Of a stretch of DNA of 43,885 nt, positions 20,687-38,000 are shown one piece after another. Position numbers and translations under genes: made by a program. Every line of letters begins with the position of its first letter. Position 1 is the stretch's first letter. Below the pieces are notes generated by a model. That model was not told the DNA's origin. It did not search any database and worked only from the letters and a program-made list of their open reading frames with translations. The stretch is from Bacillota bacterium. Its GTDB lineage: Bacteria; Bacillota; Halanaerobiia; B1SED10-174. The stretch covers positions 1 to 43,885 of the forward strand of contig SKTZ01000042.1 of the NCBI GenBank assembly GCA_007122335.1, given 5' to 3'.

Positions 20687-20708
20687 AGTTTCACCTCCAA
20701 AAGGAATA

Positions 20709-20727
20709 TGTGCACAAATGGTGCACA
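20709..20727. promoter_or_regulatory. Palindromic operator candidate
   Basis: TGTGCAC-N5-GTGCACA is a perfect inverted repeat between the -10 box and the start codon of the fusion gene. It lies just downstream of the expected transcription start, where repressors commonly bind. A further GTGCAC covers the start codon at 20681-20686. Confidence 0.5.
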
Positions 20728-20739
20728 CCCTCATATCAA

Positions 20740-20768
20740 ATGATACTAAAAAACAAGAAAAAAAACAA
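20740..20768 (-). promoter_or_regulatory. Promoter of the aminotransferase-reductase fusion gene
   Basis: Minus strand TTGTTT (20763-20768), 17 nt, TATCAT (20740-20745). It partly overlaps the T-tract of the upstream operon terminator. Confidence 0.5.
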
Positions 20769-20785
20769 GGCTAGAAAAAGCCCTG
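20758..20785 (-). terminator. Terminator of the adaptor-permease-propeller-hydrolase operon
   Basis: Minus-strand stem CAGGGCT / AGCCTTG (one G-U pair) with a 6-nt loop and eight T, 58 nt past the hydrolase stop. It marks the 3' end of the operon that begins with the HlyD-type gene. Confidence 0.78.
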
Positions 20786-20842
20786 CTGAAAAAAACAATT
20801 AAATAAACTCTTTTTCCCCTCAAAAACCCATATAAAAACCTT

Positions 20843-21991
20843 TTAATCAGTTTTTCTGGGAACCTCCTTGCTCCCCGAGGTGTGGAAAAGGGTAAAACCC
20901 TGAAATTCTCCTGCTTCCTCCCAAAATTCTATTTGGGCAAACATCATATCAAGCGAAAAAATCTTTCCTTCTTTGGGAATTAAAAGAACCGGGGGTATAT
21001 TTGGTAAATCAAGGTTCAACATACCTTTTTCATAAAAAACTTCCGCCACTCCCCCGGGAGAATAACAAAATTTGCCAAGGAATGCTTCGGCTTTTTCCCT
21101 TTCCATAAAATAGGTTTGCCCCGAACTGATCAGATCATCAAAAACAATGCCCAGGTCGCTCGTATTTAATCCCCTGGAATCCAAAGAAAAAATTTGTTTT
21201 CCTTCATTTTCTCCTGTTGCTATAAGAATTTCTTTTTCCAGGTCAATTTCCCAGGAGAGAGAAAAATCCCCATTCCAAGCCATTAATATCTTCCTTCTCT
21301 CCGGTAAAAAAACAAGAGAAATCCTTGTTGTAGCCTGTCTGGTCTCCCATAGGGCTTTCCATGCATCCTGAACACTGAACGTTTCTCCTTCAGCCAGAAT
21401 AATTTCTTCAAGTAACAGGTACCGCGGACAGGTAATCTCCCCGGGGAGATAACGACTATTATAAAAATTTGTCATCAGGCTAAAATCTCTGGATGTTTCA
21501 ACGACAACAAGCCCATCTTCCTCAACTTCAATGACCATAGCCCCTCCCCAACGGTCTGCAAGATGCAGGTGGAGAAAAAAACCCGGTACTGCAAAAACCT
21601 CCTTACCCTTGAGATATCCTTTAATTTCATTAATATTCCTTGAGTTAGCCAGTGCCCATTGGAAAACTTCAGAAATATACACTCCTCTTTGACCAATAGA
21701 ATAATTGTTTAAAGGCGGTACTGTCTGCAGGGAAGCCATCAGCCCTTGACAATTCATCCCCATGGTTTTCCTATAGTTACCTTCCATCCTGTACTCCAGG
21801 GTAAAATATTTAATATCCCGTCCGCTCCGGTGAATAGAAAAGCGAGCCTGATCCGGTGGGAACCAGTCCAGATTGGAACCGTAAATAGCCTCCTGGCCAA
21901 AAACCGCAAAACTGGAACAGGATTGCCCGGACGCGGTAAATAGAAACAAAACCCAAATTAAAAGAAAAAGCAGGGTTACAATTCTTCTCAT
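20843..21991 (-). CDS. Exported Ntn-hydrolase (linear amide C-N hydrolase / choloylglycine hydrolase-like)
   Basis: 382 residues. A signal peptide (about 1-24) is followed at once by CSSFAVFGQEAIYGSNLDW. This is the pattern of cysteine N-terminal-nucleophile hydrolases: Cys25 would become residue 1 after cleavage, and a G-x-N-x-D follows about 17 residues later. Further support comes from GVYISEVFQWALANS and a late acyl-pocket-like region. Such enzymes cleave linear amides (bile salts, penicillin V, acyl-homoserine lactones) or transfer acyl groups; the substrate here is unknown. It lies 19 nt after a propeller/membrane gene and is the last gene of the operon, which suggests it processes what the permeases handle. 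ATG start with GGGAGA upstream. Confidence 0.72.
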   Translation of the reverse strand: MRRIVTLLFLLIWVLFLFTASGQSCSSFAVFGQEAIYGSNLDWFPPDQARFSIHRSGRDIKYFTLEYRMEGNYRKTMGMNCQGLMASLQTVPPLNNYSIGQRGVYISEVFQWALANSRNINEIKGYLKGKEVFAVPGFFLHLHLADRWGGAMVIEVEEDGLVVVETSRDFSLMTNFYNSRYLPGEITCPRYLLLEEIILAEGETFSVQDAWKALWETRQATTRISLVFLPERRKILMAWNGDFSLSWEIDLEKEILIATGENEGKQIFSLDSRGLNTSDLGIVFDDLISSGQTYFMEREKAEAFLGKFCYSPGGVAEVFYEKGMLNLDLPNIPPVLLIPKEGKIFSLDMMFAQIEFWEEAGEFQGFTLFHTSGSKEVPRKTD

Positions 21992-22010
21992 TTTTATAGA
22001 TCTCCCTTTT

Positions 22011-23699
22011 TCACGGCATAAAGCTTTGAGGTGCTAAAGCCAGGTATAATAAAAATGTATCGGAAAAAATCCAAACCAGGGAGTAAAACAAATATAGGAA
22101 CTCTTCGCCTCCCTTGAACCAGTTTTTACGGGAAACCCATAGAACCGTTGCTGTTGCAACAACACCCGAGAAGAGCATTAAACCGTTATCCGCAGGAGGC
22201 ACGGTGTAAAAGAGGGGAATATATTCCCGAAAAAGGAAAATTAGGATTATTAGAATACCCAAAAATTGAAAACAATTTATTTTCCCTAAAAGTCTGTTTT
22301 TTTGTAAAATATATAGGATAAGGCCAATAAAAAATATGGACAATCCATTCCTAGCAATTAACCCCAGAGATGCGATAAAACTATAGAGAACCATTAAAGA
22401 ACCCTCGATGACAATACTACCAAATCCCTCCTCAACAAACCAGAGTTGCCAGTTGTGGTACCATTTCGCCGAACCAAGTTTGCTGCTGGTAAGACCCCAG
22501 ATCCTATCGTTACTACCATCTACCCGACGGGCCATCATAACAAAGTCGCCTTTATGGTTGTTAATAACCCGGGCCAGACGGTTACTGCTGTATTCATCAG
22601 TAATTCTTTGTGGTTCCAGCAAAATATCTCGTTCACTGTCCAGGTAAGTATACATTAAATTAAACTGCCTTCCAAAATAATCTTCCCATACAATGCCCAG
22701 TTCTCCCTTTTCATTGGAAAAGAGATTTCCGAACAGGGGGAAATTCCTTCCCTGGATTCTCCAGAGAGCTTCTAAATCTCCATTTTGGCCTATACGGGCT
22801 AATTTAACAGTTGACTGGATAATATTAAACCCAGGGTCCCAGATAGAATCAGTCCAGGTAATATAAATTTCTCCAGCATCGTTAACAAAAAAATCGGCGC
22901 CCGGGTCCTCCCGGTAATAAATTGGCTGACCGTTATGTCTACCAAAATAATATGATGCGAAACCAATTTTTTTTGGCTCCTGATTTTTTAGTCCCATGGA
23001 TTCAAGATCAACCGCCTGGTACAGGGCGATTCCCCGGTCGTTTTCGCTTCCCTTCCATTGCATGTGAAGAGTATTATCAGGACCAATTACAAATCTGGGC
23101 AGGCAAAGTAAATTCTCACTTTTAAAAACAAGGAAAGGTTCTTTACCTTTTTTCTCAAACCAAAGCCGGTATTCTTGCTCGGCTCTTTCTATATAAGTAA
23201 TAAATATTTCGCCGCCATGAACAGTGGCAGCAATATCGTGGTTGCGGGAAATATTTTTCCCCAGAGGGGAAAAAGTGATTTCTCCCCCCTGAAAAACCAG
23301 GTATGGCTGATTGCTGCCTTCTTCTCTAGAAACCAGCCCAAAAACAGCTTCTTCCCCATACATCCCCACCGGGAAAAGGAATTCAACCTGCATCTCTGAA
23401 AGCAAATCAATCTCCGCTTCCTGGATTTTTTGTAAATTTTGATCCAGCTTTAGATACTCCAGCCCACTACCCCGACCAGGCTTCAAGCCCAAGTAGTGTA
23501 AGTTCTGGCCATCACCCCAGAAAAATACAGGCCTGAAATCCATACCTCTTTCCCAGTTAAAGAATGATCGAGGAGCATACTTGATATTTTCTTCATTTTC
23601 TTTTTCCTGGAAAGGCAGGGCCAAAGAAATGGAAATTATCCCAATCACCAATAATAGGCCCAACAAACCAATTTTCCAGTTATCTTTTAAGAGGATCAA
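22011..23699 (-). CDS. Propeller-like extracytoplasmic protein with N-terminal anchor and C-terminal membrane domain (copy 1)
   Basis: 562 residues from a TTG at 23699 that overlaps the end of the upstream permease by 20 nt; AAGGGGTG lies about 10 nt upstream. One N-terminal helix (about 8-28) is followed by about 390 outward-facing residues. These contain repeated blade-like strands of the form hydrophobic-x-hydrophobic-x-W (LHMQWKGS, IYITWTDS, LGIVWEDY). Four to five C-terminal helices follow (about 420-560) with the conserved stretches LIARNGLSIFF and WFKGGEEF. It is a clear paralogue of copy 2, with the same segments in the same order and 561 residues. No family is recognised. It may act as a tethered substrate receptor for the fused permease; this is inference from operon pairing. 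Confidence 0.65.
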   Translation of the reverse strand: MILLKDNWKIGLLGLLLVIGIISISLALPFQEKENEENIKYAPRSFFNWERGMDFRPVFFWGDGQNLHYLGLKPGRGSGLEYLKLDQNLQKIQEAEIDLLSEMQVEFLFPVGMYGEEAVFGLVSREEGSNQPYLVFQGGEITFSPLGKNISRNHDIAATVHGGEIFITYIERAEQEYRLWFEKKGKEPFLVFKSENLLCLPRFVIGPDNTLHMQWKGSENDRGIALYQAVDLESMGLKNQEPKKIGFASYYFGRHNGQPIYYREDPGADFFVNDAGEIYITWTDSIWDPGFNIIQSTVKLARIGQNGDLEALWRIQGRNFPLFGNLFSNEKGELGIVWEDYFGRQFNLMYTYLDSERDILLEPQRITDEYSSNRLARVINNHKGDFVMMARRVDGSNDRIWGLTSSKLGSAKWYHNWQLWFVEEGFGSIVIEGSLMVLYSFIASLGLIARNGLSIFFIGLILYILQKNRLLGKINCFQFLGILIILIFLFREYIPLFYTVPPADNGLMLFSGVVATATVLWVSRKNWFKGGEEFLYLFYSLVWIFSDTFLLYLALAPQSFMP

Positions 23700-25737
23700 G
23701 GGAACCGAACACCCCTTTCCCGATAAGATTTGCTGCGAGGACTACTAAAAAAATCATCACAATGGGGCCAATTGCTCTAATATCCCTACCCGCATTCCCC
23801 GCTAAAAAACCCCAGGTATTCGTTTCAATAACTTTTAAATATCCCAGAGAAGACAGCAGAACCATATTACGGCCAAAAAGGATCAAACCCTGGCCCCAGA
23901 TAAGAGGAAAAACATTCCGCAAAAGATGATTCCCCAGGATTTGAAAACGTGAATTACCCAGGGCAAAAGCAGCTTCAACAAACTGATATTCTTTGATAGC
24001 TAGCATTTGAGCCCTAACAATTTTCGCGAGTTCGATCAAGCCAAAAGCCGAAAGGGCAAAGATTATAGCAATATTATCATCAGCTATCATTCCCATCAAT
24101 AAAAAAACCAGGAAAAAAGTTGGCACAGAAGTTAATAAATCAAAAATTGACATCATTCCCCGGTCAAAAGGTCCCCGGATAAAACCCATAATTACCCCGA
24201 AAAAAGTCCCAACAAAAACCCCGATTAAAGTAACAGTAAAGACCAATTTCATGGTTTCTCCCGCGGTAACAAGTACTACGGTAAGGACAGACCGACCTAA
24301 ATGATCAGTCCCAAAAATGTAATCCAGGGACATTGGCTCATTGCGATTTCTCAGGTCAGTAGGAATATCATCTATGGTTTGATAACCGATACTCGAATAA
24401 TAAGCGAAACCAAACCCTATTCCTACGAATATTATTAAACCCACAATTATACCTGGCTTTACAAGGTTGCGGAGAAATTTTCGGATTCCCAGCCAGTTAA
24501 TTTTCAATGAAGGCAGACTAAATTGAAAAGAAGTATTACTGTTTTCCTTTCCGGGCACTTCATCAATTTTTCTCAGGAAGGGATACAATACTCCAATCCC
24601 TGCAATTAAAACTCCCAAACCAATAAAAAACCAGAAGGGGTTCTCTGCATTTTCATATAGAGGAGCCAGCCTCCAGTTATAAAAAATCATTATCGCCAAA
24701 AAAACTGCTCCCAAAAGCAGAGAGTTTTTAAAGTTCGAGGCTTCTTTTTCTCCCTCCAGGGGATTTCTTACCCGGGGGTCTACGAGGGAGTAAAGGAAAT
24801 CTGAAATCAGTGAACCTAAAAGGCTCAAAAAGGAAACAAAACCGGTAACAAAAAGAACAACGTAAAAATCACCCATGTGACTCACAACATTTCTATATAC
24901 AAGGGAACCCAGGCCAGGCCAGTTAAAAAGTCTTTCAACAATAACCATTCCTCCAAAAAAGAAGGGGAAGGAAGAGAAAATAGCTGCCAGGATTGGAATC
25001 ATACTATTCCGGAGGGCGTGCTTGAAAATTACAACCCTTTCCTTTAAACCCTTGGAACGAGCCGTTCGAATATAGTCTTCTTGCATAACCAGGGAAACAG
25101 AGGTTTTAACATGTTCGGAAAAAGTAGCAATATATCCAAGGGAAATGGTAATTGTAGGCAGGATTAAATGTTTTAATCTTATTACAAGAACATCAAACCA
25201 GTTTAAATCCCGGCCGAAAGTATAATATCCTCCAACTGGGAGCCAGCGAAAATACACAACAAATAATAAAATCAAAAGCAAACCCACAGCAAAATCTGGT
25301 ATTGAAATGCCCAACATGGAAAACCCATTAAAAAAACGGGTTAGAAGACTCCTTGGTTTTAAGGCACTGTAAACCCCAATCACAAGACCAACTATAACTG
25401 CAAATAATAGTCCAGGGATAATTAAATTCAGGCTCACCTTCAACCTTTCCCAGAGGACTTCGGCCATCGGAGCACCGGCACCTCTGGTGGCTCCTCCAAC
25501 TCCACCCCAATTGCCCTGCAGGACTTCGGCCATCCAGGCAAAATAATGCCGGGCGGGAGAAACATCCAGTCCGGCTGAACTCCTTTCCCGGGCAATATCA
25601 AAAATTGAAGACGACCGGATTGGAAAAATCCGGGACATCCCCCCTGGAGTGATAGATACTAATGTAAAAACAATAGCCGTCATAAGAAACATTAAAAGCA
25701 GGACTGTTATAACTCTTCTTACAAAAAACCGGTTCAA
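23680..25737 (-). CDS. Single-chain DppB-DppC fused ABC permease (copy 1)
   Basis: 685 residues from a TTG at 25737 with AGAGGTG 6 nt upstream. Residues 1-325 form a complete DppB/OppB-type permease: RRVITVLLLMFLMTAIVFTL at the start, ISIPDFAVGLLLILL, the cytoplasmic EAA-type loop EDYIRTARSKGL (220-231), NWPGLG and DPRVRNP. A joiner with two extra helices spans about 335-390. Residues 415-685 form a DppC-type permease with DYIFGTDHLGRSVL (472-485) and a second EAA loop (FVEAAFALGNSRFQI, 586-600). Normally these are two separate proteins. No ATPase or solute-binding gene is in this operon; the OppD/OppF pair at 31.8-33.9 kb is the nearest candidate. Tandem duplicate of the 27.5-29.5 kb gene. 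Confidence 0.88.
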   Translation of the reverse strand: MNRFFVRRVITVLLLMFLMTAIVFTLVSITPGGMSRIFPIRSSSIFDIARERSSAGLDVSPARHYFAWMAEVLQGNWGGVGGATRGAGAPMAEVLWERLKVSLNLIIPGLLFAVIVGLVIGVYSALKPRSLLTRFFNGFSMLGISIPDFAVGLLLILLFVVYFRWLPVGGYYTFGRDLNWFDVLVIRLKHLILPTITISLGYIATFSEHVKTSVSLVMQEDYIRTARSKGLKERVVIFKHALRNSMIPILAAIFSSFPFFFGGMVIVERLFNWPGLGSLVYRNVVSHMGDFYVVLFVTGFVSFLSLLGSLISDFLYSLVDPRVRNPLEGEKEASNFKNSLLLGAVFLAIMIFYNWRLAPLYENAENPFWFFIGLGVLIAGIGVLYPFLRKIDEVPGKENSNTSFQFSLPSLKINWLGIRKFLRNLVKPGIIVGLIIFVGIGFGFAYYSSIGYQTIDDIPTDLRNRNEPMSLDYIFGTDHLGRSVLTVVLVTAGETMKLVFTVTLIGVFVGTFFGVIMGFIRGPFDRGMMSIFDLLTSVPTFFLVFLLMGMIADDNIAIIFALSAFGLIELAKIVRAQMLAIKEYQFVEAAFALGNSRFQILGNHLLRNVFPLIWGQGLILFGRNMVLLSSLGYLKVIETNTWGFLAGNAGRDIRAIGPIVMIFLVVLAANLIGKGVFGSLDPLKR

Positions 25738-25787
25738 TTAAAACACCTCTGCTTTTTTTGCTAATAGGTAATTTGTCATATTTTTTT

Positions 25788-27473
25788 CTAGGGGCTAAAG
25801 GTTCCCGGAGTTATAGCCAGGAGGAGAATAAAAGAATCCAGGAAAATCCATAATACAGTATAACCAAGGTAAACAAATTCTTCCCCACCTTTAAACCACT
25901 GCTTGCGGGCAACCATTATCACCAGCAGGGTAGAAATAAGAGCGGAAAAAAGCTGTAACCCAGCAGAGGAAGCGGGAGTAGAATAAAATAAAGGTAGGAA
26001 TCCCCGGAGGGAAATAATTATCGCTAAAAGCAAACCGCAAAAAAGGAAAAAATTAATCCTTCCCAGTATCCGATGCGACTGGAGAATGTAGAGCAAAACC
26101 GCAATCAGGGCAATTGCCAGACCATTCCGAGCCAGTGTAGCTACCGCAGCTATTAAACTAAAAAGGGAGATCATAGCTGTTTCTAAAAAAATACTTCCCA
26201 GGCCATCCTGAACAAACCAAAGCTGTAACCTTTGACTCCAGCCGGGTGGGGCCATTTCCCTACTGGTTCGAGCCCAGATTTCGTCTTCCCTGCCATCCAT
26301 TGTTTTCCAGAAAGTAACAAATTCCCCATCAGGGCCTTTTTCAACCGAAACCAGGCGGTGATTACCAAAAAATGGGGTGAACCGCTCCGGGGAGGAAAAA
26401 TACTCCAGTTCTGGGCTATAAGAAGAAAGCAACAAATCAAAACGGCCTGCAGAATAGTCTTCCAGAAGAATATTTACATCTTCTTTTTGATCAAGAAATA
26501 ACTCACCGAAAGCAGAAAAATTTGTCCTTCCGGAAAATGTCCACCGCTCCAGAATTTCCCCGCGGGAAGACATTTTCAAGAGTTTTACTTTTGATTCAAA
26601 AACCCCCAGAAGCGGCTCCCAAAATGCATCGGTCCAGGTAACAAAGAGGTCACCATCCCCGTCAAAAATTAAATTGCCCCCAGGATCTTCCTGAAATAGC
26701 TTTGGCTGACCACCAACTTCCCCGAAATATATGGAGACAGAACCCAATTCTTTGGGATAATCAAAAACAACCCTTTTATCCTCCAGGTCATAAATCTGGT
26801 GCTGGGCAACCCCAATAGCCCCCCTGGTCCCTTTCCAGAGAAGGTAAATTTCTTTATCCCCATCGAAGGTAAGCCTTGGTAATCCTAAGAAATTCTCGGA
26901 GGAAAAAATCAGGTTTTTTTCACCCCCATGATATGCCTTTAAATAATATTCCCCTTCTTCCCGGGTGACAAAAACCAAAATAGGCAATCCATCTACTAAA
27001 ATTCCAGCAATATCCTTACTCTGCTGTATTGAAAAGGGAAGTTTTTTCATGGTTTTTTCTCCCTGGACATTCGCCAGAAGATACGGTTGATAGGCTCTTC
27101 CCTCCCGGCTAACAACTACGAAATAAGTTTGGTTTCCTTGGAACCCGACAGAAAAAATATATTCTACCTCGGAAATCTCTTCAAGTTCAAATGAGACCTG
27201 AGAGGACAAATTAAATTTATGATCAAAAATTAAATATTTTATCTCCTGGCTGTCTTTCCTGCCCAAGTAATGAATATTACCATCATTACAAAATGAAAAA
27301 GCAGGAGGATAATGGGCTGCTCTTTCCCGGCTAACAAAATGCCGGGGAGCATTTACAATTGTTTTTTCTTTTTCTCCAGAGGGCGGCATCAGGTAAAAGT
27401 GAGCAAGACCAGCAAGAATAATCATAACAAGAAGAAATATTTTCAGTGGCAGATTATCTTTTAAGGGGGTCAA
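25788..27473 (-). CDS. Propeller-like extracytoplasmic protein with membrane domain (copy 2)
   Basis: 561 residues from a TTG at 27473, chosen because the junction matches copy 1 exactly (20-nt overlap, GGGAAGGGAGTG about 10 nt upstream). A longer open frame to 27521 is unsupported. Architecture as in copy 1: N-terminal helix (about 9-27), long outward domain with blade-like motifs (IYLLWKGT, LFVTWTDA, VNILLEDY), and C-terminal helices with TLARNGLAIAL and WFKGGEEF. EDPGGNLIFDGDGDLFVTWT resembles a calcium-loop or Asp-rich blade turn. Function unknown. Its fixed pairing with a fused permease argues for a subunit of the transporter, perhaps replacing the absent solute-binding protein. Confidence 0.65.
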   Translation of the reverse strand: MTPLKDNLPLKIFLLVMIILAGLAHFYLMPPSGEKEKTIVNAPRHFVSRERAAHYPPAFSFCNDGNIHYLGRKDSQEIKYLIFDHKFNLSSQVSFELEEISEVEYIFSVGFQGNQTYFVVVSREGRAYQPYLLANVQGEKTMKKLPFSIQQSKDIAGILVDGLPILVFVTREEGEYYLKAYHGGEKNLIFSSENFLGLPRLTFDGDKEIYLLWKGTRGAIGVAQHQIYDLEDKRVVFDYPKELGSVSIYFGEVGGQPKLFQEDPGGNLIFDGDGDLFVTWTDAFWEPLLGVFESKVKLLKMSSRGEILERWTFSGRTNFSAFGELFLDQKEDVNILLEDYSAGRFDLLLSSYSPELEYFSSPERFTPFFGNHRLVSVEKGPDGEFVTFWKTMDGREDEIWARTSREMAPPGWSQRLQLWFVQDGLGSIFLETAMISLFSLIAAVATLARNGLAIALIAVLLYILQSHRILGRINFFLFCGLLLAIIISLRGFLPLFYSTPASSAGLQLFSALISTLLVIMVARKQWFKGGEEFVYLGYTVLWIFLDSFILLLAITPGTFSP

Positions 27474-29520
27474 TGTTTCCAAACACTCCCTTCCCGATAA
27501 CATTAACTGCATAAACAACAAGGATGATCATAATTATTGGTCCCAGGCTCATCCACCAGCTGTACATTGAAGTTCGAACTGCGCTACCGGCCATAGAGCC
27601 CCAGGTAGGAATGGGAATAATCCGCAGGTACCCCAGAGAAGAGAGCAGGACCATGTTTCGGCCAAAAAGAATTAAACCCTGTCCCCAGATCAAGGGAAAA
27701 ACATTGCGGAGTAGATGTCTACCCAAAATTTGCAGTTCCGAGTTTCCAATAGCCCTTGCCGCTTCGACAAATTGGTACTCTTTTACCGAGAGCATTTGCG
27801 CTCGAACAACCCGCCCCAGTTCAATCAGCCCTACCACCGAAGCAGCCATTATTATCACATTTTCTCCCCGGCCTATCGCTCCCATAACCAGAAAAACCAA
27901 AAAGAAACTGGGAATTGAAGAAAGCAGATCAAAAGCTGACATTATTAGCCGGTCCATAACTCCCTGGATATAACCGGAAAGCAAACCAATAATGGCACCA
28001 CCAAAAACGCCGATCAGGGTTACATAAAAAACAAGAGTTAATGTATTTCCAGCATTAATTAAAACTTTTGATAAAACAGGTTTTCCCAGCTCATCTGTCC
28101 CTAAAATGTTATCCCAGGAAGGAGCAAGAAGGCGGTTGCCCAGATTTACTGGAATATCAGTAACCTCACTATAACCAATCCCCTGTAAGTAAAAATGGCC
28201 CCCAATAATTCCCGCGAGAATTAATATGCCAATAATTACCTGGGGTTTACCAAATTTCCTGAGAAAACTGATTAACAAACGAAGGTTAACTTGAGGTATT
28301 TCCAGGGCAAATCCCTTTTTAGAAACTTCAGGGGTAGAAAGCTTTGTTTTTTTCGGATTCTCAGCAAAAATAAGCATTCCAATAATAATCAGAAGCAGGG
28401 AAAACGAACCCAAAACCAGTGTAGAGCCATTAATATTCCGATAAATAGGTTCCAGGAAAGCGAAATAAATAAACACTGCTCCAAAGCAGGAAAAAAGTGC
28501 AATAAACAGGTCAACTACTCTCGTGCCCTTGCTCCCCTTTTCCACAGGGCTTCTAACTCTGGGATCAACAATGGCATAGAGAAAATCAGCAAATAAACTG
28601 CCCAGAAGCGTAATAAAAGAAGTCAATCCTGTAATAATTAAAACTACATAAAAATCCCCACCCCTGGCCACTACATTGCGGAAAATAAAGGAGCCCAGTC
28701 CCGGCCAGGAAAAAAGGTGTTCTACAACAACTATCCCACCCAGAAAAAATGGGAGGGATGAAAAAATTGAAGCTAAAATTGGGATTAAACTATTTCGCAA
28801 AGCATGCTTAATAACAACCAGTCTTTCGGATAAACCCTTGGACCGAGCTGTCCTGATATAATCTTCCTGCATAACAATCGAGAGAGATGTTTTTACATGT
28901 TCGCCAAAAATGGCAATATAACCAAAAGAAAGGGTTATTGCCGGAAGAATAAGGTGTTTTAATCGATCCAAAATTAACCCAAAACCCGTTTCATCATAGA
29001 TTATCCCCTGATAACCACCGGAAGGAAGCCATCGTAACTGAACTGCAAAAACAATTAACAAAAGGATCCCCAGGGCAAAATCAGGAATTGAAACCCCAAG
29101 AATATTTATATAGCTAAATACTTTTGTCAAAAAATTTTTGGGGCGCAGAGCACTGAAAACCCCCATAACCAGGCCAAGGAAAATTGCCAGAATTAATGAG
29201 CTTGCAATTAAAGAAAAGCTCACCTTTAATCTCTGCCAGAGAATAGTACTAAGTGGAAAACCCGCTCCCTCAGTCCCTCCAACAGTTCCAAAATTTCCTT
29301 TAACAATTTCACCTAACCAGAAAAAGTACTCCCGGGCGGGAGAAGAATCGAGGTTTTGGATGGCCCTTTCTCTGGCTATATTAAAAGGCCCAGCACCACC
29401 AACGGAAAAAACCCTCTCCAAGCCCTGAGGAGATGAGGCAATTAAGGAAAAAATAATAGCGGTTAAAAGCCATACCAAAAATAAAACAGTCAATAACCTT
29501 CTCGTAAAAAAGCGTCCCAT
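27454..29520 (-). CDS. Single-chain DppB-DppC fused ABC permease (copy 2)
   Basis: 688 residues from an ATG with AGGAG 8 nt upstream. The organisation matches copy 1: an N-terminal DppB-like half (RRLLTVLFLVWLLTAIIFSL, EDYIRTARSKGLSERLVVIK, SWPGLG, DPRVRSP), a joiner with two extra helices, then a DppC-like half (NILGTDELGKPVL, FVEAARAIGNSELQILGRHL, GQGLILFGRN). Both EAA loops, which dock ABC ATPases, are preserved in both halves, so the protein is likely energised by a nucleotide-binding partner not encoded in this operon. It follows the HlyD-type adaptor by 11 nt. Confidence 0.88.
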   Translation of the reverse strand: MGRFFTRRLLTVLFLVWLLTAIIFSLIASSPQGLERVFSVGGAGPFNIARERAIQNLDSSPAREYFFWLGEIVKGNFGTVGGTEGAGFPLSTILWQRLKVSFSLIASSLILAIFLGLVMGVFSALRPKNFLTKVFSYINILGVSIPDFALGILLLIVFAVQLRWLPSGGYQGIIYDETGFGLILDRLKHLILPAITLSFGYIAIFGEHVKTSLSIVMQEDYIRTARSKGLSERLVVIKHALRNSLIPILASIFSSLPFFLGGIVVVEHLFSWPGLGSFIFRNVVARGGDFYVVLIITGLTSFITLLGSLFADFLYAIVDPRVRSPVEKGSKGTRVVDLFIALFSCFGAVFIYFAFLEPIYRNINGSTLVLGSFSLLLIIIGMLIFAENPKKTKLSTPEVSKKGFALEIPQVNLRLLISFLRKFGKPQVIIGILILAGIIGGHFYLQGIGYSEVTDIPVNLGNRLLAPSWDNILGTDELGKPVLSKVLINAGNTLTLVFYVTLIGVFGGAIIGLLSGYIQGVMDRLIMSAFDLLSSIPSFFLVFLVMGAIGRGENVIIMAASVVGLIELGRVVRAQMLSVKEYQFVEAARAIGNSELQILGRHLLRNVFPLIWGQGLILFGRNMVLLSSLGYLRIIPIPTWGSMAGSAVRTSMYSWWMSLGPIIMIILVVYAVNVIGKGVFGNIDPLKR

Positions 29521-29531
29521 GGAAACAGCTC

Positions 29532-30995
29532 CTAATTTCCTTCTGTAAAGTTAACTTTAAGTTCTTCAATATGTCTCCGTTCCCACTCCGAAAGCTTTGC
29601 TCCAAGCTGATTTAAAGCCTGGGGGCTTCCAATAACCAGGTTGCTCGAAGCGCTTAAACCTGAAATCACTTCAACAAAATCTTCATTTACCTGGCCAATT
29701 CTTATCCGGTGGGGATAAACCTCCCGGGTATCTTTATCAACCAGGAAAACATAATGAGCAGTTTCTTCCCCTTCCCTGATTACCATTCTGGTTTCTGGTA
29801 ATTTGCGCTCAAATACTGCATAAGGGGGAATAACCAAGAGCCTTCTCCCCTGGAGATTAATAGTCGCTTGGACCTGCATTCCGGGTTTAATCAAATCCCT
29901 CCGGTCTGTAATGAGAACCCCTACCTCTACCTGGTTCGGTTCAGCCCAGGATGAGATCCACTTAACCTCTCCGCTCAGGGGAGGATGGACGTCTTCTAGC
30001 TCTACTTCGACCTCCAGCCCTTCTTTAAGCCGATGGAAGTTCTTACTGTCTACCTTTAATACAATTTCCAGGAGTTCGGGGTCATTTATAGCCATTACTT
30101 TATTATCTACATTAATCTGTTGTCCCTTCTCAACTTTTAAACTGGTCAAACAACCACTCACAGGGGCCTCAATTTCCCGGCGAGAAATTTGTTCCTGCAA
30201 ACGGTTTATTTCTTTTTCCAGAATTTTTATTTCTTCCTGGGCAATATTTAAAACATGGGGGTTATTGAATTTTTCAATTTTTCCCTTAACTCTTGCAATA
30301 TTATTTTTTATCCGTTCTCCCTCTCGTTCCAGGTTTTCCTTTTTTAGCGGAGCCTCAACTCGGTTAAGCCTGTCCCAATCTTCCTTTGCTCTGGTCAGGT
30401 CCCTCTTTATGGCTTCAGCTCTTTCCTGGACTTTTTCAACATCTCTGCGGGATATGTGTTGCCCTTCCAGAAGGTCTTCCAGGTATGCCAGTTCCTCTTT
30501 TTCTCTTTCCAGGTTTTTTTCTAAATCTTCAATCAGGCGTTCCAGGTCCTGTTTTTGTCTTTCAATAAAAAATTCAAGTTCTTCTTCTCTCAGGATCCAG
30601 TCCAGATGGTTTTCTTCCAGCTGAGCAAGTTCACGCTCCAGGCCAGTAATTTCCCCCTCTAGCTGATCTTTAAATCTCTTTATCTGAAGTTCTTTTTTAA
30701 CAAGCGCCTCTTCCCATTCCGTCGAAGAATAAGAAAAAAGGAGATCTCCAGCTTCAACTCTATCTCCCTTCCTAACATAAACATCCGAAACCCTGCCGGT
30801 AAAAGGAGCGTAAATATCTTTATTCTCAACAAACCTAACCTCTCCCACAGCATCAATAGTTCTTACAACACTCCTATGCTGGGGATTATAAATTTGTACT
30901 TCTATTCCCTTTTGTAAAAAATATATCCCCGCCAGAGATGCTCCCAGAAGTCCCAGGATAACAACCAGGGCCAGGATATCACGAACCTTTTCCAT
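29532..30995 (-). CDS. HlyD/membrane fusion protein-type periplasmic adaptor
   Basis: 487 residues. One N-terminal helix (about 7-27) is followed by a lipoyl half-motif (APFTGRVSDVYVRKGDRVEA, near 63-82). A long coiled coil runs from about 95 to 275. The second lipoyl half (EAPVSGCLTSLKVEKGQQIN) and beta-barrel segments follow, with a membrane-proximal C-terminus. This is the standard adaptor layout of MFP subunits that link inner-membrane transporters to outward steps in ABC (MacA-like), RND or type I export. Its presence upstream of importer-type permeases is unusual. It is the first gene of the operon, with RBS GAGGTG. I found only a lone TATAAT-like box (about 31017-31024) and no good -35, so the promoter is unsettled. 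Confidence 0.85.
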   Translation of the reverse strand: MEKVRDILALVVILGLLGASLAGIYFLQKGIEVQIYNPQHRSVVRTIDAVGEVRFVENKDIYAPFTGRVSDVYVRKGDRVEAGDLLFSYSSTEWEEALVKKELQIKRFKDQLEGEITGLERELAQLEENHLDWILREEELEFFIERQKQDLERLIEDLEKNLEREKEELAYLEDLLEGQHISRRDVEKVQERAEAIKRDLTRAKEDWDRLNRVEAPLKKENLEREGERIKNNIARVKGKIEKFNNPHVLNIAQEEIKILEKEINRLQEQISRREIEAPVSGCLTSLKVEKGQQINVDNKVMAINDPELLEIVLKVDSKNFHRLKEGLEVEVELEDVHPPLSGEVKWISSWAEPNQVEVGVLITDRRDLIKPGMQVQATINLQGRRLLVIPPYAVFERKLPETRMVIREGEETAHYVFLVDKDTREVYPHRIRIGQVNEDFVEVISGLSASSNLVIGSPQALNQLGAKLSEWERRHIEELKVNFTEGN

Positions 30996-31426: not shown

Positions 31427-31594
31427 TTAAAAAAGAAGGTAAAAGAGAAGGATTACCCCTCCCAAAACACCAAAAATTATCAGCATGGGAACCAGAATTA
31501 TCTCATAGGCCGCAATGGTCATGGCCACAAAATCCTTCCAGCCCGGCTTAACTTCTTCCTCGCGTTCCCAGTCTCTATTCGGTTCATAATGCAT
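31427..31594 (-). CDS. Small single-span membrane protein (55 residues)
   Basis: An ATG at 31594 with a strong purine-rich RBS (GGAGAGGGGGGG) opens a 55-residue frame ending at a TAA at 31427. The first 20 residues are charged and acidic (EPNRDWEREEEVKPGWKD), followed by a long hydrophobic segment to the C-terminus. It has a promoter candidate (31712-31740) and the bidirectional terminator directly after it, so it looks like a real single-gene unit. I recognise no family. It lies between the opp operon and the adaptor operon; it might be a small transporter accessory protein, but this is only positional. Confidence 0.65.
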   Translation of the reverse strand: MHYEPNRDWEREEEVKPGWKDFVAMTIAAYEIILVPMLIIFGVLGGVILLFYLLF

Positions 31595-31740: not shown

Positions 31741-31780
31741 CCAATTTAGGAAATGTTTCCTGGAGAGGTTTAAAAAAGAA

Positions 31781-31805
31781 AAAGGAGAGGCAAAGCCTCT
31801 CCTTT
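31781..31805 (-). terminator. Terminator of the opp operon
   Basis: Minus-strand stem AAAGGAGAGGC / GCCTCTCCTTT with a 3-nt loop, followed by TTCTTTTTT, 7 nt past the last ATPase gene. Confidence 0.88.
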
Positions 31806-31812
31806 CGTCTTT

Positions 31813-32811
31813 TTAAAGAACATCCCTTTCCGGAGCTCCTTCTTCCAGGTGACAGGCGGCGAAGTGCTTATCGCCCCAGTCGACGAACTCAGGTTCTTCG
31901 GTTTTACAGATGTCCATAACGTATGGGCAGCGAGTGTGGAAACGACAACCAGAAGGAGGATTAATCGGACTGGGAACATCACCCTTGAGGATGATTTTTT
32001 CCCTCTGGATTGCTGGATCCGGAATGGGTATAGCAGATAAAAGAGCCTGAGTATAGGGATGAATTGGTCTCTTAAACAGGGCTTTTTTATCAGCCAGTTC
32101 CACAATTTTGCCAAGGTACATAACTGCAATCCGGTCACTGATGTGCTTAACAACGCCCAGGTCGTGAGCGATGAAAAGGTAGGTAAGGTTAAATTCTTTC
32201 TGCAAATCTTCCATCAGGTTGATAACCTGGGCCTGAATAGAAACGTCTAGGGCTGATACCGGTTCATCACAAACAATCAGTTTGGGGTCAACAGCCAGAG
32301 CCCGAGCAACACCAATCCGCTGACGCTGGCCACCACTGAACTCGTGGGGATAGCGGCGCATGTGGTGAGCTGTAAGACCTACGGTTTCCAGGAGTTCCTT
32401 TACCTTTTTCTCCTTGGCTTTGCCTTTGGCCAAACCGTGAATTTCCAGGGCTTCTCCGATAATGTTTCCGACGGTCATCCGGGGATTAAGTGAACTATAG
32501 GGATCCTGGAAAATAATTTGCATTTCCCGGCGCAGACTCCTCATTTCTTCCCGACCGAGCTCCAGGATATTTCTCCCCTCAAATAAAATCTCGCCTTCTG
32601 TGGCTTCTTCCAGGCGGAGGACAACTTTTCCGGTAGTGGTTTTCCCACAACCTGACTCCCCGACCAAACCAAGCGTTTCTGCTTTATTTACATAAAAAGA
32701 AACACCGTCAACGGCTTTTACATTGCCGACAACCCGGCCGAAAACTCCACCCTTAATGGGAAAGTACTTTTTCAGATTATTGACTTCTAACAGGACTTCT
32801 TCAGTAGCCAC
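31813..32811 (-). CDS. Oligopeptide ABC transporter ATPase, OppF/DppF type
   Basis: 332 residues from a GTG with GGAGGTG upstream. Walker [10 protein letters not shown], signature [15 protein letters not shown], Walker [13 protein letters not shown] and the switch histidine in FIAHDLG are intact. The C-terminal oligopeptide-type extension has the cysteine-bearing motif [15 protein letters not shown]. The N-terminal [11 protein letters not shown] is typical of the F subunit. It forms the ATPase heterodimer with the D subunit encoded just upstream. As the nearest ATPase pair to the orphan fused permeases, it may serve both transporters (inference). Confidence 0.93.
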
Positions 32812-32827
32812 CAGAATTCACCTCCAA

Positions 32828-33853
32828 TTAAACCTTTTTTTCCGCTTCGGCAACTTTATCATAGTGCCAGCAGCGAACTTGATGTCCTGAATCGATATCT
32901 TCCAGTTCTGGTTCTTCTTCAACGCATTTCTCCGAAGCGAAACGGCAACGCGGGTGGAATTTGCATCCATCCGGTAAGAAAAGCGGGTTGGGCACAACAC
33001 CTTCAATAACCAAAAGCCGTTCCCGTTCTGCATCAAGACGCGGAATCGACTGGAGCAGCCCCCATGTATAGGGGTGGCGGGGCTCATGGAATATTGTATT
33101 TACATCGCTGTATTCCACTACTTTACCCGCATACATAACAACAACTCGGTCTGCCGTCTCGGCAATTACTCCCAGGTCGTGGGTGATGAGCATTATTGCC
33201 GCATCAAAATCTCGCTGCAAAGTAGCCATCAATTCCAGGATCTGGGCCTGAATTGTAACGTCCAGTGCTGTAGTAGGTTCATCAGCTATCAAGAGTTTGG
33301 GGTTACAGGATAGGGCCATGGCGATCATTACTCGCTGGCGCATACCTCCAGAAAGCTGGTGGGGATACTCGTGGACCCGCTTCTCGGGGAGAGGGATCCC
33401 AACCTTGCGGAGCATTTCTACCGACTTTTCCATTGCCTTATCCTTGGACAGTTTCTGGTGGAGAATAATTGCCTCCGAAATCTGGTTACCCACAGTATAA
33501 ACCGGGTTGAGTGATGTCATCGGCTCCTGGAAGATCATGGAGATATCATTCCCCCTGATCTTACGCATTGCCGATTCGCTCTTTTTCAGGATTTCATCTC
33601 CCTCGAAGGAAAGTGTGTCCGCGGTAATTTTTCCCGGAGGTTCCTGAACCAGGCGCATAATAGATAGCGAGGTAACACTTTTTCCGCAGCCGGATTCTCC
33701 AACCACACCTAATACCTCTCCTTTGTAAATTTCAAAGGATACACCGTCAACAGCTTTAACTACGCCGTCCTCAGTGTGAAAGTAGGTCTTTAGGTTTTTG
33801 ACCTCTAAGAGTAGTTCTTTGGTTTTCTTCTCGTTCTGCACATCTTTTGCCAC
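32828..33853 (-). CDS. Oligopeptide ABC transporter ATPase, OppD/DppD type
   Basis: 341 residues from a GTG with GGAGG about 11 nt upstream. Walker A GESGCGKS, signature [15 protein letters not shown], Walker [13 protein letters not shown] and LITHDLGV are intact. [17 protein letters not shown] is the usual D-subunit start. The C-terminal extension has [14 protein letters not shown], the cysteine pattern seen in Opp/Dpp ATPases. It partners with the F subunit, 16 nt downstream. Confidence 0.93.
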
Positions 33854-33875: not shown

Positions 33876-35210
33876 TTATACATCAGTCTTGGGATCAAAT
33901 GCATCTCTGATGCCATCACCCAAGAAACTGAAAGCCAGAACAGCGACAAAGATAAAAAATCCGGGAACAAGTAGCCAAGCATTTTCTGTAAGGACTCTAA
34001 CACTTTGCGCTGCAGACAACATATTTCCCCAGCTGGCCTGGGGTTGCTGGATACCCAACCCTATGAAGCTCAAAGCTGCTTCCATCAGGATATAGCCTGG
34101 TAGGGCCAGGGTCGCCGCCACAATAACGTAGGTATAGGTGTTGGGAAGAATATGACGGACAATTATTCTCAAGTCACTTGCCCCGAGAGCACGGGCCGCT
34201 TCAACAAAATCCTGTGCTCTAATGGAAAGGACCATACCTCGAATAACACGGGCCATTCCCGCCCAGCCAACAAAGGCGAGAATTACAACAATTAAAAAGA
34301 ACCGGGTTGCCGAAGTCATATCAAGGGGTAACACAGCAGCAAGGGCCATCAATAAATAGAGCTGCGGAAAGCTCATTACAATCTCGGCTAAACGCATCAT
34401 CAGGTTGTCAATCCAGCCTCCATAAAAACCGGATATACCCCCAAATATCATACCAATAAAAGTACTGATCATCAAGGCCACAATTCCAATGAATAGAGAA
34501 ACGCGGCCCCCATGCAGGACCCGGGAAAAATTATCCCGGCCAAACTGGTCGGTCCCGTACAAGAAAAGGCGTGCCGTATCCCGGTCTGAGTAGGGATCCT
34601 CAAAACTTGGTTCTCCCAATCCCAGTATTTTGGTTTTAGCTGTAAGACCCAGGATAGAAAATTCTCTGTCGGCTTCCACAAATAACTTCAACGGATAACG
34701 CGGCGATTCCTGCTTATCTTCCATCCAAATCCTCATTACCGGGAAATAGGTGAAATCGTCTACACCTTCTTCATCAGCGATAGCTTCAGCAAAACCATGG
34801 GCTTCTGCCCTTTCTAATACATCAAAAGTTCCCAGGTCAAGTTCGACTTCGGTAACTTCCCCAGTTTCAGGATCTTCCTGTTCAATATAGCCATAAATCA
34901 TATAGCGGTGTCCCCGGAGAGAATTATAAATAAATGGCCAGCGCCAGTTTCCTTCTTCATCCCTGATGTTGATTGAAACAGGCGGGTGGTAGGACTTACC
35001 CCGGTACTGGTTATAGGGGTCATGAGGAGCATATAACGGGGCTAAAATAACGGAAAAATATAAAATTGTAAGAACAATTCCCCCAAACAAAGCCAGGCGG
35101 TGCCTTTTCAAGCGGATCCAGGCAACTCGAAATGGTGACCTTATAAAATCTTCTTCACTTTCCAATTTCTTTCTTTCTTTTTCCATATTACTGGCTGGAG
35201 GTTGCTGCAC
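33876..35210 (-). CDS. Oligopeptide ABC permease, OppC type, with a large extracytoplasmic insertion
   Basis: 444 residues from a GTG with GGAGG 7 nt upstream, against about 300 for a basic OppC. After helix 1 (about 38-60) an outward insertion of roughly 140 residues (67-210) precedes LYGTDQFGRDNFSR (218-231). The remaining helices and the EAA loop (FVEAARALGASDLRII) are normal. A comparable insertion occurs in a known subset of OppC proteins (pattern YPLKLFVEADREFSILGL), so it is a subfamily trait, probably contacting the binding protein. Between oppB and oppD in the operon. Confidence 0.9.
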   Translation of the reverse strand: MQQPPASNMEKERKKLESEEDFIRSPFRVAWIRLKRHRLALFGGIVLTILYFSVILAPLYAPHDPYNQYRGKSYHPPVSINIRDEEGNWRWPFIYNSLRGHRYMIYGYIEQEDPETGEVTEVELDLGTFDVLERAEAHGFAEAIADEEGVDDFTYFPVMRIWMEDKQESPRYPLKLFVEADREFSILGLTAKTKILGLGEPSFEDPYSDRDTARLFLYGTDQFGRDNFSRVLHGGRVSLFIGIVALMISTFIGMIFGGISGFYGGWIDNLMMRLAEIVMSFPQLYLLMALAAVLPLDMTSATRFFLIVVILAFVGWAGMARVIRGMVLSIRAQDFVEAARALGASDLRIIVRHILPNTYTYVIVAATLALPGYILMEAALSFIGLGIQQPQASWGNMLSAAQSVRVLTENAWLLVPGFFIFVAVLAFSFLGDGIRDAFDPKTDV

Positions 35211-35228
35211 ATTTATACCTCCTTTCCT

Positions 35229-36200
35229 CTAATTGTACCTTATCCGGGGATCAGTTATCGCCAGCAGAATATCAGCCAGCAGATTTCCCAGGATAAGAAG
35301 GGCGCTTCCCATTAAAAGTCCAGCCATGGCAACATAAAGATCTTTTTGCCTAACTGCAGTCAAGAGCATATTGCCCAGACCCGGATAGCTAAAAACAATC
35401 TCGGTAATTGCCGCCCCACTGAGCAGGGCACTTATGCTGAATCCAAAAATGGTAATAAGCGGGTTTATTGCGTTACGCAGGGCATGTTTGTAAATAACCA
35501 CTCGATCGCTCAAACCCTTGGACCGAGCTGTCCGAACATAGTCCTGGCCCATGGCATCCATCATCTGGCCCCGCATCTGCCTCATTAAACCGGCCATCCC
35601 GGAAGTAGCCAGAACTATTGTCGGGGGAATCAGGTGCCGAATATAATCCCACATTCTTCCCATAAAACTCAATTCCTCGTGGTACCAGGAAGTCATACCC
35701 CCCACAGGTAGATTGAACAGACCATATCTTGCAAGAAAATAAAGTATTATCAGGCCGAAGAAAAAGTTGGGAATAGATATTCCAAAAAAGGTAAAAAAAG
35801 TTAAAATGTTATCTCTTACAGTATAACGGTTGATTGCAGCGTGAACACCAATTGGGATTGCCACAACCCAGGTTAAAATCGTAGCAGCAAGAGATAAGCG
35901 AAAAGTATTCAATATCCGGCCGCCGATCAGATCTGTAACCGGTATGCGATAGGCAAAAGAGTAACCAAAGTTCAGCTGCATAACTTCTTTTAGCCAATTG
36001 AAATACTGGACCCAAACTGGCTGGTCCAAACCAAATTCCGCCCGCATTTGGGCGATTACAGCTGAAGAAATATCAGGGTTCATTTCAATCTGGGCCAGGA
36101 AATCTCCTGGAGAAAGGTTAAGCACAAAAAAGCTGATCATACTTATCCCAATCAGCAGGGGAATCATCTGCAATATTCGCCGAATTACATAAGTCCGCAT
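35229..36200 (-). CDS. Oligopeptide ABC permease, OppB type
   Basis: 323 residues, ATG start. The N-terminal helix with RRILQMIPLLIGISMISFFV, the EAA loop (QDYVRTARSKGLSDRVVIYK), YPGLGNML and DPRIRYN are standard for OppB/DppB. It forms the membrane channel with OppC. A strong hairpin separates it from the upstream binding-protein gene, which should lower its expression relative to that gene. Confidence 0.94.
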   Translation of the reverse strand: MRTYVIRRILQMIPLLIGISMISFFVLNLSPGDFLAQIEMNPDISSAVIAQMRAEFGLDQPVWVQYFNWLKEVMQLNFGYSFAYRIPVTDLIGGRILNTFRLSLAATILTWVVAIPIGVHAAINRYTVRDNILTFFTFFGISIPNFFFGLIILYFLARYGLFNLPVGGMTSWYHEELSFMGRMWDYIRHLIPPTIVLATSGMAGLMRQMRGQMMDAMGQDYVRTARSKGLSDRVVIYKHALRNAINPLITIFGFSISALLSGAAITEIVFSYPGLGNMLLTAVRQKDLYVAMAGLLMGSALLILGNLLADILLAITDPRIRYN

Positions 36201-36246
36201 ACTCGTCCTCCTTTCCCCACCAAATCAATTAAAATCAAAAAATAAA

Positions 36247-36270
36247 GGGGGGAGAGGAAGCTCTCCCCCC
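36247..36270 (-). terminator. Intercistronic hairpin between oppA and oppB
   Basis: Perfect 10-bp stem GGGGGGAGAG / CTCTCCCCCC with a 4-nt loop and a TTTATTTTTT tract on the minus strand, 14 nt past the oppA stop. It probably acts as a partial terminator or mRNA 3' stabiliser that gives excess binding protein. Confidence 0.75.
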
Positions 36271-36284
36271 TTTGTTCCTCTCTC

Positions 36285-38000
36285 TTACCTGGAAATAAAG
36301 AGACTTTCTATATTGTGATACCAACCACCTACAATAGTCGGGTCAGCATTTTTTACAGTATTGCGCATTGCAATAATGCTGTCCTGAACTACAGTGTAGA
36401 TAAGAGGTACCTGTTCTGCGATAATTTCCTGCCATTCATAGTACAGGGCTTGCCTTTCCTGGGGATCGAGAACGGTTGCTGCTTCATCAAAGATCTCGTC
36501 TACGCGGGCTTCCCAATCGGTAGCGGGTTCAGATTGAACGGGGTTCCACATGTGCAGGTTACCCGAAGAATGCCATACGTTCCGGCCGCTGTGGGGTTCG
36601 AGGCCACCGGTAAGTCCGATGATAATGACATCCCATTCAAATTCACTAACCAGCTGATTAACGAGTAGGTTAAAATCAACTGGAGTAAAGGTTACATCCA
36701 TTCCCAATTCCTGCAGGTCGGCCTGAATAATATTACCAGCACCTTCACGAACAACATTACCGGCGTTGGTAGTCATAATGAAGCTAACCCTGTTGCCGTC
36801 TGCATCAAACAGGCGTCCCTGGGCATCCCAGGTAAAACCGCTAGCTTCCAGATATTCTCTTGACTTATCCAGGTCGTACTCATACCTGGGCACATCCGGA
36901 TTGAGGAAGAAATCGTTGGGCGCACTGACCGGTGTCCACTGGGGTGAAGCAAGACCGTCGTAAAGCTGGTCAATCATTGTATCCTTGTCCATGGCATGGG
37001 CCATAGCCCGGCGGAAGTTCAGGTCGGTGAACCATTCATATTTATAGGGCTCTTCCTCGAAGTGAGGACCTCTCGGGTTCTGGTTCATAACCACAAACAG
37101 GGTGCTGAAGGTAGGACCGAGATTGTAAACGGTCATATCCCAGTTACGCTCGTTCATGCGGTAGCGAGCATAGTCAGCAGGCATAACCGGAGAAACGTGG
37201 GTCTGGCCTGCTTCAAAGGCAAGACTCTGGGCTTCCTGGGATTCAACTATCTGCATAATCCAGCGGTTAATATAGGGAAGAGTTTCTCCCTCTTCATTAA
37301 CATGCCAGTAGTTGGGGTTCCGGAGCAGGACAACCCGTTCGCCCGGACGATAGCCACCAAGCATGAAAGCATCCGAGCCGATAATTTGAGAAGGTGGTGT
37401 GTTTACACCCCAGGTTTCATTATACATTCCAGCTTCCCAGGCATCATAGAGAGCATGCTTGGGAACAATCATGGGCATTGAGTTAAGAAGCGGTGCGAAA
37501 GGTTCGGGCAGGTAAAGGCGGAAAGTATACTCATCAATTACCTCATAATCAAGGTATTGACCTGCCACCTGGAGAATATCTCTGGAGCTGGTGGGAACTG
37601 ACTCATCGTAGATAACGTCGAAGGTAAACTCCGCGTCATATGCAGTCAGAGGAGTCCCATCACTCCACTTTACACCTTCTCGGAGGTAGAAAGTCCATTC
37701 CAGACCATCATCACTGAAATCCCACCCCTTGGCAAGGCTCGGAACCAATTCCGCGGTGTGAGGATCATATTGGGTAAAAGAGGTCAGGAAACGATAGATG
37801 ATATCCGTAGATGAAGTTTCTTTGGCAATATGAGTGTTAAAAGTCCTTGGATCGGATATCTGTGCACTTAAAAGAGTTTCACCAATGGTCCCTACAGGAT
37901 AGGGGGAGACGACGTAATCGCTGGGAATTGAAGCGATTACAGAAAAGGACATTGCCAGAACCAATGCCCCGACAAAAAAGACAATCAGACTCTTTTTCAC
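36285..38000 (-). CDS. Solute-binding protein family 5 (peptide/oligopeptide)
   Basis: 571 residues from a GTG with GGAGG 8 nt upstream. A signal peptide (about 1-23) is followed by the SBP family 5 core: LVPSLAKGWDFSDDGLEWTF, the signature LREGVKWSDGTPLTAYDAEF, and YEWFTDLNFRRAMAHAMDKD. No lipobox cysteine is seen, so anchoring would need another mechanism or an outer membrane that confines it. It delivers the ligand to OppBC. Peptide specificity is the default guess; sugars and other ligands also occur in this family. Confidence 0.92.
   Translation of the reverse strand: MKKSLIVFFVGALVLAMSFSVIASIPSDYVVSPYPVGTIGETLLSAQISDPRTFNTHIAKETSSTDIIYRFLTSFTQYDPHTAELVPSLAKGWDFSDDGLEWTFYLREGVKWSDGTPLTAYDAEFTFDVIYDESVPTSSRDILQVAGQYLDYEVIDEYTFRLYLPEPFAPLLNSMPMIVPKHALYDAWEAGMYNETWGVNTPPSQIIGSDAFMLGGYRPGERVVLLRNPNYWHVNEEGETLPYINRWIMQIVESQEAQSLAFEAGQTHVSPVMPADYARYRMNERNWDMTVYNLGPTFSTLFVVMNQNPRGPHFEEEPYKYEWFTDLNFRRAMAHAMDKDTMIDQLYDGLASPQWTPVSAPNDFFLNPDVPRYEYDLDKSREYLEASGFTWDAQGRLFDADGNRVSFIMTTNAGNVVREGAGNIIQADLQELGMDVTFTPVDFNLLVNQLVSEFEWDVIIIGLTGGLEPHSGRNVWHSSGNLHMWNPVQSEPATDWEARVDEIFDEAATVLDPQERQALYYEWQEIIAEQVPLIYTVVQDSIIAMRNTVKNADPTIVGGWYHNIESLFISR

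Follow-up and report, generated by a model that had tools for sequence, protein, structure and literature searches.

A membrane-anchored beta-propeller protein, encoded twice within a six-gene unit of contig SKTZ01000042.1 (Bacillota bacterium, assembly GCA_007122335.1; all 43,885 nucleotides analysed are hereafter the window), is very probably an undescribed accessory subunit of Opp-family ATP-binding cassette (ABC) transporters. The same propeller lies inside ordinary peptide-importer operons of other Firmicutes and therefore looks like an overlooked transporter subunit; the main interest lies in this subunit, outside the window, whose own unit is a lineage-specific elaboration. The six genes are open between positions 20843 and 30995, all on the minus strand, and encode a MacA/HlyD-type adaptor, two OppB-OppC fusion permeases (BCa and BCb), each followed by a propeller/membrane protein (propA and propB), and an exported N-terminal nucleophile (Ntn) hydrolase. 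Reading frames, Pfam and NCBIfam agree with this composition, as given in the original prediction. The evidence is computational throughout, and metagenome-assembled genomes (MAGs) are the only source for the lineage here; from the computed gene content, conservation, homology and predicted fold we infer complex formation, ATPase sharing, adaptor contact, transport direction and the role of the Ntn hydrolase.

The propeller protein and its place in Opp operons

The propeller protein was modelled with AlphaFold2 (AF2) on a 34-sequence alignment (mean predicted local distance difference test score, pLDDT, 86.1; predicted TM-score, pTM, 0.80). The model comprises an N-terminal transmembrane (TM) helix (residues 8-28), about 28-29 strands between residues 45 and 403, read as seven blades, and C-terminal helices at residues 425-449, 451-466, 475-492, 504-525 and 532-558. 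Foldseek matched the propeller to sialidase, PLL-lectin and CylK structures, with E 2e-9 for CylK and a TM-score (by target) reaching 0.69 for PLL2. None of the families in Pfam or NCBIfam scored above its curated cut-off, the best being BNR_4 at 18.7 bits versus 27.3. For propA, the ratio of nonsynonymous to synonymous substitution rates (dN/dS) was 0.16-0.19.

Within the class, the propeller was found in 9 of 59 genomes (families f1, f4 and f9), and outside it in families f62, f124, f47 and f29. Profile-profile comparison linked the window propellers to the broad set (A2 vs. A6: 99.4%, E 9e-22) and to the f29 proteins (A2 vs. A8: 94.7%, E 6e-8). With the membrane domain alone, the link between f1 and f29 was transitive only (1e-5 and 5e-5), and unrelated controls gave 0-5%. 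Matches to the broad profile that lack TM helices (L187, L189-L195) were excluded as a different kind of soluble protein; they are about 520-590 aa long, and several lie beside small proteins with a CPPPTEI-like motif.

The gene order in f29 is the most telling. At eight loci (genomes G191, G076, G244, G315, G338, G220 and G292), the propeller gene lies directly 3' of OppC and usually overlaps its end. OppD and OppF follow in 7/8, giving the order SBP-B-C-P-D-F, and a gene for a solute-binding protein (SBP) precedes everywhere except in G315, where the contig begins inside OppB. In the SBPs of two f29 loci (L180, 10401-12434; L181, 12227-14209), SBP_bac_5 is preceded by a fused N-terminal Cu_amine_oxidN1 domain.

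In f4, the propeller follows OppF in L098 and L102 (in L100, a weakly similar 613-aa protein does so), OppC in L101, and OppC-OppB in L050; L098, L102, L100 and L101 are Opp operons with an SBP gene. In f62 it follows an OppC in L052, L053 and L104, pairs with no adjacent OppB, SBP or Opp ATPase gene. At the N terminus, the OppC proteins of L050, L052, L053 and L104 have two additional helices, which can be compared with the two-helix linker in the fusions. An OppC tree joined the fusion C-halves to propeller-linked OppC weakly (61/89, long branches) and was not relied on. In two f62 genomes, a propeller/membrane protein (L105, 7681-9318; L106, 8081-9703) adjoins genes that by eye resemble arginine deiminase, ornithine carbamoyltransferase and carbamate kinase.

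Homologues thus co-occur with transporter genes beyond the host genome, as fusion neighbourhoods in the family and as propellers in the Opp loci of other families, a co-occurrence on which the original prediction had made itself depend. Its suggestion of a tethered receptor that replaces the SBP did not hold, given that the propeller coexists with SBP_bac_5 in f29 and in several f4 Opp operons; for the same reason we regard it as an accessory subunit and not as a replacement for the SBP.

Alternatively, the propellers could be independent envelope proteins that merely adjoin Opp genes in peptide-scavenging genomes. About 12 of 20 locus types have no adjacent Opp gene, among them those flanking polA in f1. 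This reading was already disfavoured and is very improbable: in f29 the gene is intercalated between OppC and OppD with overlapping start and stop, always immediately downstream and on the same strand, and adjacency to Opp genes in 8 of about 20 locus types would be unexpected at a background of 5-10% (p 3e-6 to 4e-4, from a hand count and a roughly estimated background). Because the count was made by hand, the f29 intercalation weighs more than this statistic.

The f1 loci away from Opp genes have a recurrent setting. In all sampled f1 genomes, polA is flanked by two further propeller/membrane proteins (order transketolase - propeller - polA - propeller - mutM, names by eye), with a third copy in G005. 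In the host genome (G000), a contig break inside this block divides it between window positions 42737-43885 and contig C2 (L097, 2052-3731).

The six-gene unit and its lineage

Each fusion contains two BPD_transp_1 copies per chain (1e-45 to 1e-49) as well as BPD_transp_1_N (Pfam). Residues 1-324 align to OppB models and residues from about 420 to 685 to OppC models (NCBIfam), and hydropathy places the two-helix linker of BCa at about 338-386. Homologues in the PDB are the OppB/OppC entries 8j5q, 8z21 and 8z1v. The EAA-type coupling loops are intact in both halves (EDYIRTARSKGL and E.Q.VEAA..GN, conserved in the alignment by eye). All six genomes sampled from the family, which are MAGs of Halanaerobiales from soda lakes, contain a fusion open reading frame (ORF), at a dN/dS of 0.07-0.09, that is, under purifying selection. 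An assembly or annotation artefact, the possibility raised at the outset, is ruled out by this sharing and selection, and the fusion is genuine. The idea that the fusion is widespread was rejected: a strict search of 398 genomes of the phylum (E <= 1e-70) returned no further fusion beyond the two of this genome, although more diverged ones could escape the threshold; it also gave two unfused adjacent B-C pairs (G006 and G172).

The start of propA is probably the TTG at 27473 rather than 27521, the start of the longest ORF, since the former gives an overlap of about 20 nt with the BCa stop that matches the second pair (23699/23680). With that start, both fusion/propeller overlaps suggest coupled translation.

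Features of the window discussed in the text
Feature	Coordinates	Strand	Basis
Exported Ntn (CBAH/C45-like) amide hydrolase	20843..21991	-	PF02275
propB, second propeller/membrane subunit (putative), 562 aa, 39% identical to propA	22011..23699	-	
BCb, second OppB-OppC fusion permease, 685 aa, 55% identical to BCa	23680..25737	-	Pfam, NCBIfam
propA, propeller/membrane subunit (putative), 561 aa	25788..27473	-	AF2 model; ~20 nt overlap with BCa
BCa, OppB-OppC fusion permease, 688 aa	27454..29520	-	BPD_transp_1 x2, NCBIfam, hydropathy, PDB homologues
MacA/HlyD-type periplasmic adaptor, 487 aa	29532..30995	-	Pfam and TIGR01730
Intrinsic-terminator-like hairpin 3' of the Ntn gene, downstream border	20764..20787	-	9-bp stem and T tract
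Intrinsic-terminator-like hairpin 3' of OppF, upstream border of the unit	31780..31806	-	12-bp stem and T tract
OppF-type ATPase, candidate energiser in trans	31813..32811	-	ABC_tran and oligo_HPY
OppD-type ATPase, candidate energiser in trans	32828..33853	-	ABC_tran and oligo_HPY
OppC, OppB and SBP_bac_5 (OppA, 36285-38000) of a complete Opp operon	33876..38000	-	Pfam
Third propeller/membrane protein, same superfamily (P0001), cut by the contig end	42737..43885	-	In profile alignment A6

Among named genomes, the nearest are MAGs from soda-lake sediment that carry the label Halobacteroidaceae/Halanaerobiales; PMC6146748 contains the sample codes B1Sed10 and T1Sed. Two fusion-propeller pairs and the Ntn gene are present in G000 and G002, whereas a single pair is present in G001 and visible in G005. 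Only a relic of the second cassette is left in G004 (L018, 8400-9480), where BCb is gone, propB is fragmentary and the Ntn remnant has lost the Cys region. This joint decay suggests that BCb, propB and the Ntn hydrolase function together. Taken as a whole, these arrangements are best read as the elaboration, in this genus, of a propeller-bearing Opp system through B-C fusion, duplication and the recruitment of an efflux-pump adaptor.

The Ntn gene product matches PF02275 (CBAH) at 23.0 bits against a cut-off of 20.4, and scores 47.7 bits with C45_proenzyme (NF040521), below its curated cut-off of 85. The signal peptide is followed by CSSF...YGSNLDW in G000 and G002, and the nucleophile is likely Cys25, just after the signal peptide; this Cys is conserved in G002 and lost in the G004 relic, the sequence against which the dN/dS of 0.26 was obtained.

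Downstream of the unit, positions 18071-20734 encode an 887-aa fusion protein in which a class-III aminotransferase, closest in NCBIfam to the PigE model but below its cut-off, is joined to a reductase-like C-terminal part. In G001 (L020), two separate genes encode the parts (420 and 457 aa).

Energy supply, adaptor and direction of transport

The original prediction had also noted the absence of ATPase and SBP genes. This stands for the unit itself, where Pfam detected no SBP_bac_5 gene within 20843-30995 and no OppD/OppF ATPase (oligo_HPY), and needs qualifying for the surroundings: directly upstream on the same strand, past a strong terminator (31806-31780), lies a complete Opp operon in the order OppA-B-C-D-F, which runs from 38000 to 31813 and includes one SBP_bac_5 gene and both ATPases. 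With OppD/OppF encoded next door, the lack of a linked ATPase is less strange, and the ATPase-coupling loops kept by the permease halves lead us to expect one in trans. OppDF adjoins the unit in G000, G001 and G004, and this neighbouring pair, the simplest candidate, is by analogy fairly likely to be shared. Between OppF and the adaptor gene lie a tRNA-Leu on the opposite strand and a possible 55-aa single-TM ORF (31427-31594, minus strand), followed by a strong hairpin near the tRNA (by eye).

The adaptor matches HlyD_3 (1e-16), Biotin_lipoyl_2 (4e-11) and HlyD_D23 in Pfam, and TIGR01730 at 122.7 bits against a cut-off of 94.9. It consists of an N-terminal TM anchor, lipoyl/barrel domains and a long alpha-hairpin, has a dN/dS of 0.135, and adjoins the fusion in 5/5 genomes of the genus. 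Its closest relatives in the class outside the genus (E 1e-26 to 1e-33) are MacA-type adaptors whose operons also contain a MacB-like ATPase with two FtsX-type permeases and, in many cases, OEP-like genes; permeases and OEP proteins were labelled there from sequence starts. No MacB/FtsX-type inner-membrane ABC partner is encoded in the unit, where the partner genes are Opp-type permeases by Pfam. The adaptor probably works with the propeller-bearing permease. At the hairpin tip, the TolC-binding RLS motif (RxxxLxxxxxxS; PMC3391258) is kept in part, with its L present in four of five genomes and S/T in all five. Halanaerobiales are diderms with a lipopolysaccharide (LPS) outer membrane (PMC5007114), and OEP matches occur on host contigs C152 and C34, within other efflux operons.

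On this basis, we tentatively explain the unit as an elaborated Opp-family ABC translocator used outward, an account that falls a little short of an even chance. Each B-C fusion would form a whole two-subunit permease domain in a single chain, and each propeller protein a stoichiometric membrane subunit, its five C-terminal helices beside the permease and the seven-bladed domain over the outer mouth. An OppD/OppF pair, most simply the upstream one, would hydrolyse ATP in trans. The adaptor would dock on the permease/propeller assembly and bridge the periplasm to a shared TolC-type channel, through which a peptide- or amide-like substrate would be moved outward; in the periplasm, the Ntn hydrolase may trim the second cassette's substrate. 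Outward transport as such is evenly poised. The full tripartite exporter, in which an Opp-type single-chain permease, an integral propeller and a MacA-type adaptor borrow OppD/OppF, is a possible architecture, on the doubtful side.

In the competing importer explanation, the BC-propeller units would rely on the neighbouring operon for OppD/OppF and for an SBP, of which OppA (36285-38000) is the simplest choice. The propeller would be a docking platform or extra receptor, the Ntn hydrolase would deacylate substrates before uptake, and the adaptor would tether the complex to the outer membrane or guide substrate from an outer-membrane pore. Such an importer is a serious possibility, if short of probable. 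The f29 and several f4 homologues lie in SBP-containing Opp operons, the loops and coupling motifs of the permease follow the canonical pattern, the Opp operon next to the unit is conserved in that position, and the roughly 20 Opp-type permease loci of the host genome are consistent with a peptide scavenger. However, the unit contains no SBP, and neither do L050, L052, L053 and L104, the loci whose OppC has extra N-terminal helices; moreover, MacA-type adaptors are known from export machines (PMC8277102).

A non-transporting role was also considered, in which the permease would act in ATP-driven mechanotransmission or sensing, as in FtsEX, MacB or BceAB, with the propeller sensing the state of the envelope or substrate and the adaptor transmitting it. 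The orphan OppC-propeller pairs of f62 (L052, L053, L104) resemble reduced systems, and propellers are common binding modules. We consider this unlikely, as both permease halves and their coupling loops are conserved at the low dN/dS given above and the unit has no sensor kinase or regulator.

Several observations weigh against the outward, adaptor-coupled reading. Propeller systems with an SBP gene look like importers, which would make import the family default. No adaptor match was found genome-wide in G005 at E <= 1e-25, where the contig ends inside the fusion, and a permease-propeller pair may therefore work without an adaptor. The arginine of the RLS motif is conserved neither in the adaptor nor in the inspected MacA-type relatives of the class, and the unit has no OEP gene. 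The terminator after OppF suggests that OppDF lies outside the transcript of the unit. The AF2 model of the fusion was poor (pLDDT 49) and was not used. Taking both sides together, we lean slightly towards export via a TolC-type channel, with import a close rival, because the unit lacks an SBP and has recruited an efflux adaptor. The original prediction is supported in part: its idea of an Opp-fold permease recruited for export or envelope delivery fits the MacA-type relatives of the adaptor, although the direction of transport is our inference.

Comparison with known systems

Opp/Dpp transporters are five-component importers. If the reading proposed here is correct, a conserved, unannotated sixth subunit, a membrane-anchored propeller encoded within or beside Opp operons of several Firmicutes families, would change that inventory of components and point to a level of docking or substrate selection that has gone unrecognised. 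In the Halanaerobiales version, a permease turned into a single chain meets an efflux adaptor, and export across two membranes driven by importer-fold ABC proteins would become a directly testable question. In line with the original prediction, searches of Pfam, NCBIfam, the PDB and the literature yielded no transporter of such composition, and neither an OppB-OppC fusion nor a propeller subunit of Opp was described in the open-licence papers covered. No relative was found among viral contigs.

The outer domain of the propeller protein shares its fold with the seven-bladed propellers of sialidases, PLL-lectins and CylK, from which it differs in sequence (about 10-13% identity) and in being joined to membrane helices. 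For ATPase borrowing, precedents are the multitask ATPases MsmK and MsmX, which serve permeases encoded elsewhere (PMC7658222, PMC4519317); type I ABC importers are reported to share ATPases (PMC7658222). Those are sugar systems, whereas for the window unit it is OppDF that would be shared.

With the MacAB-TolC tripartite exporters the unit has in common a long-hairpin adaptor of similar length and a partial RLS tip. In contrast, its inner-membrane partner is an Opp-type permease instead of MacB, the operon contains no OEP gene, and a conserved insertion in the adaptor (about residues 396-409) is missing from the MacA-type relatives. A precedent for outward use comes from ABC systems with an importer fold for which export is reported: SapBCDF, of the Opp family, and PstSCAB are described as putrescine exporters (PMC12772348). 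Their permease subunits are separate, and the abstract of that paper mentions no adaptor or propeller.

Also among the closest known systems are the Opp/Dpp transporters themselves (Mycobacterium tuberculosis OppBC, 8j5q; Escherichia coli OppBC, 8z21, and DppBC, 8z1v), with homology across full subunit lengths, both permease domains and the EAA-type coupling loops in common, and OppABCDF as a neighbour. The window unit, without an SBP or ATPase of its own, differs in joining B and C into a single chain by a two-helix linker, in having two copies of that chain, and in adding a propeller/membrane subunit and an adaptor.
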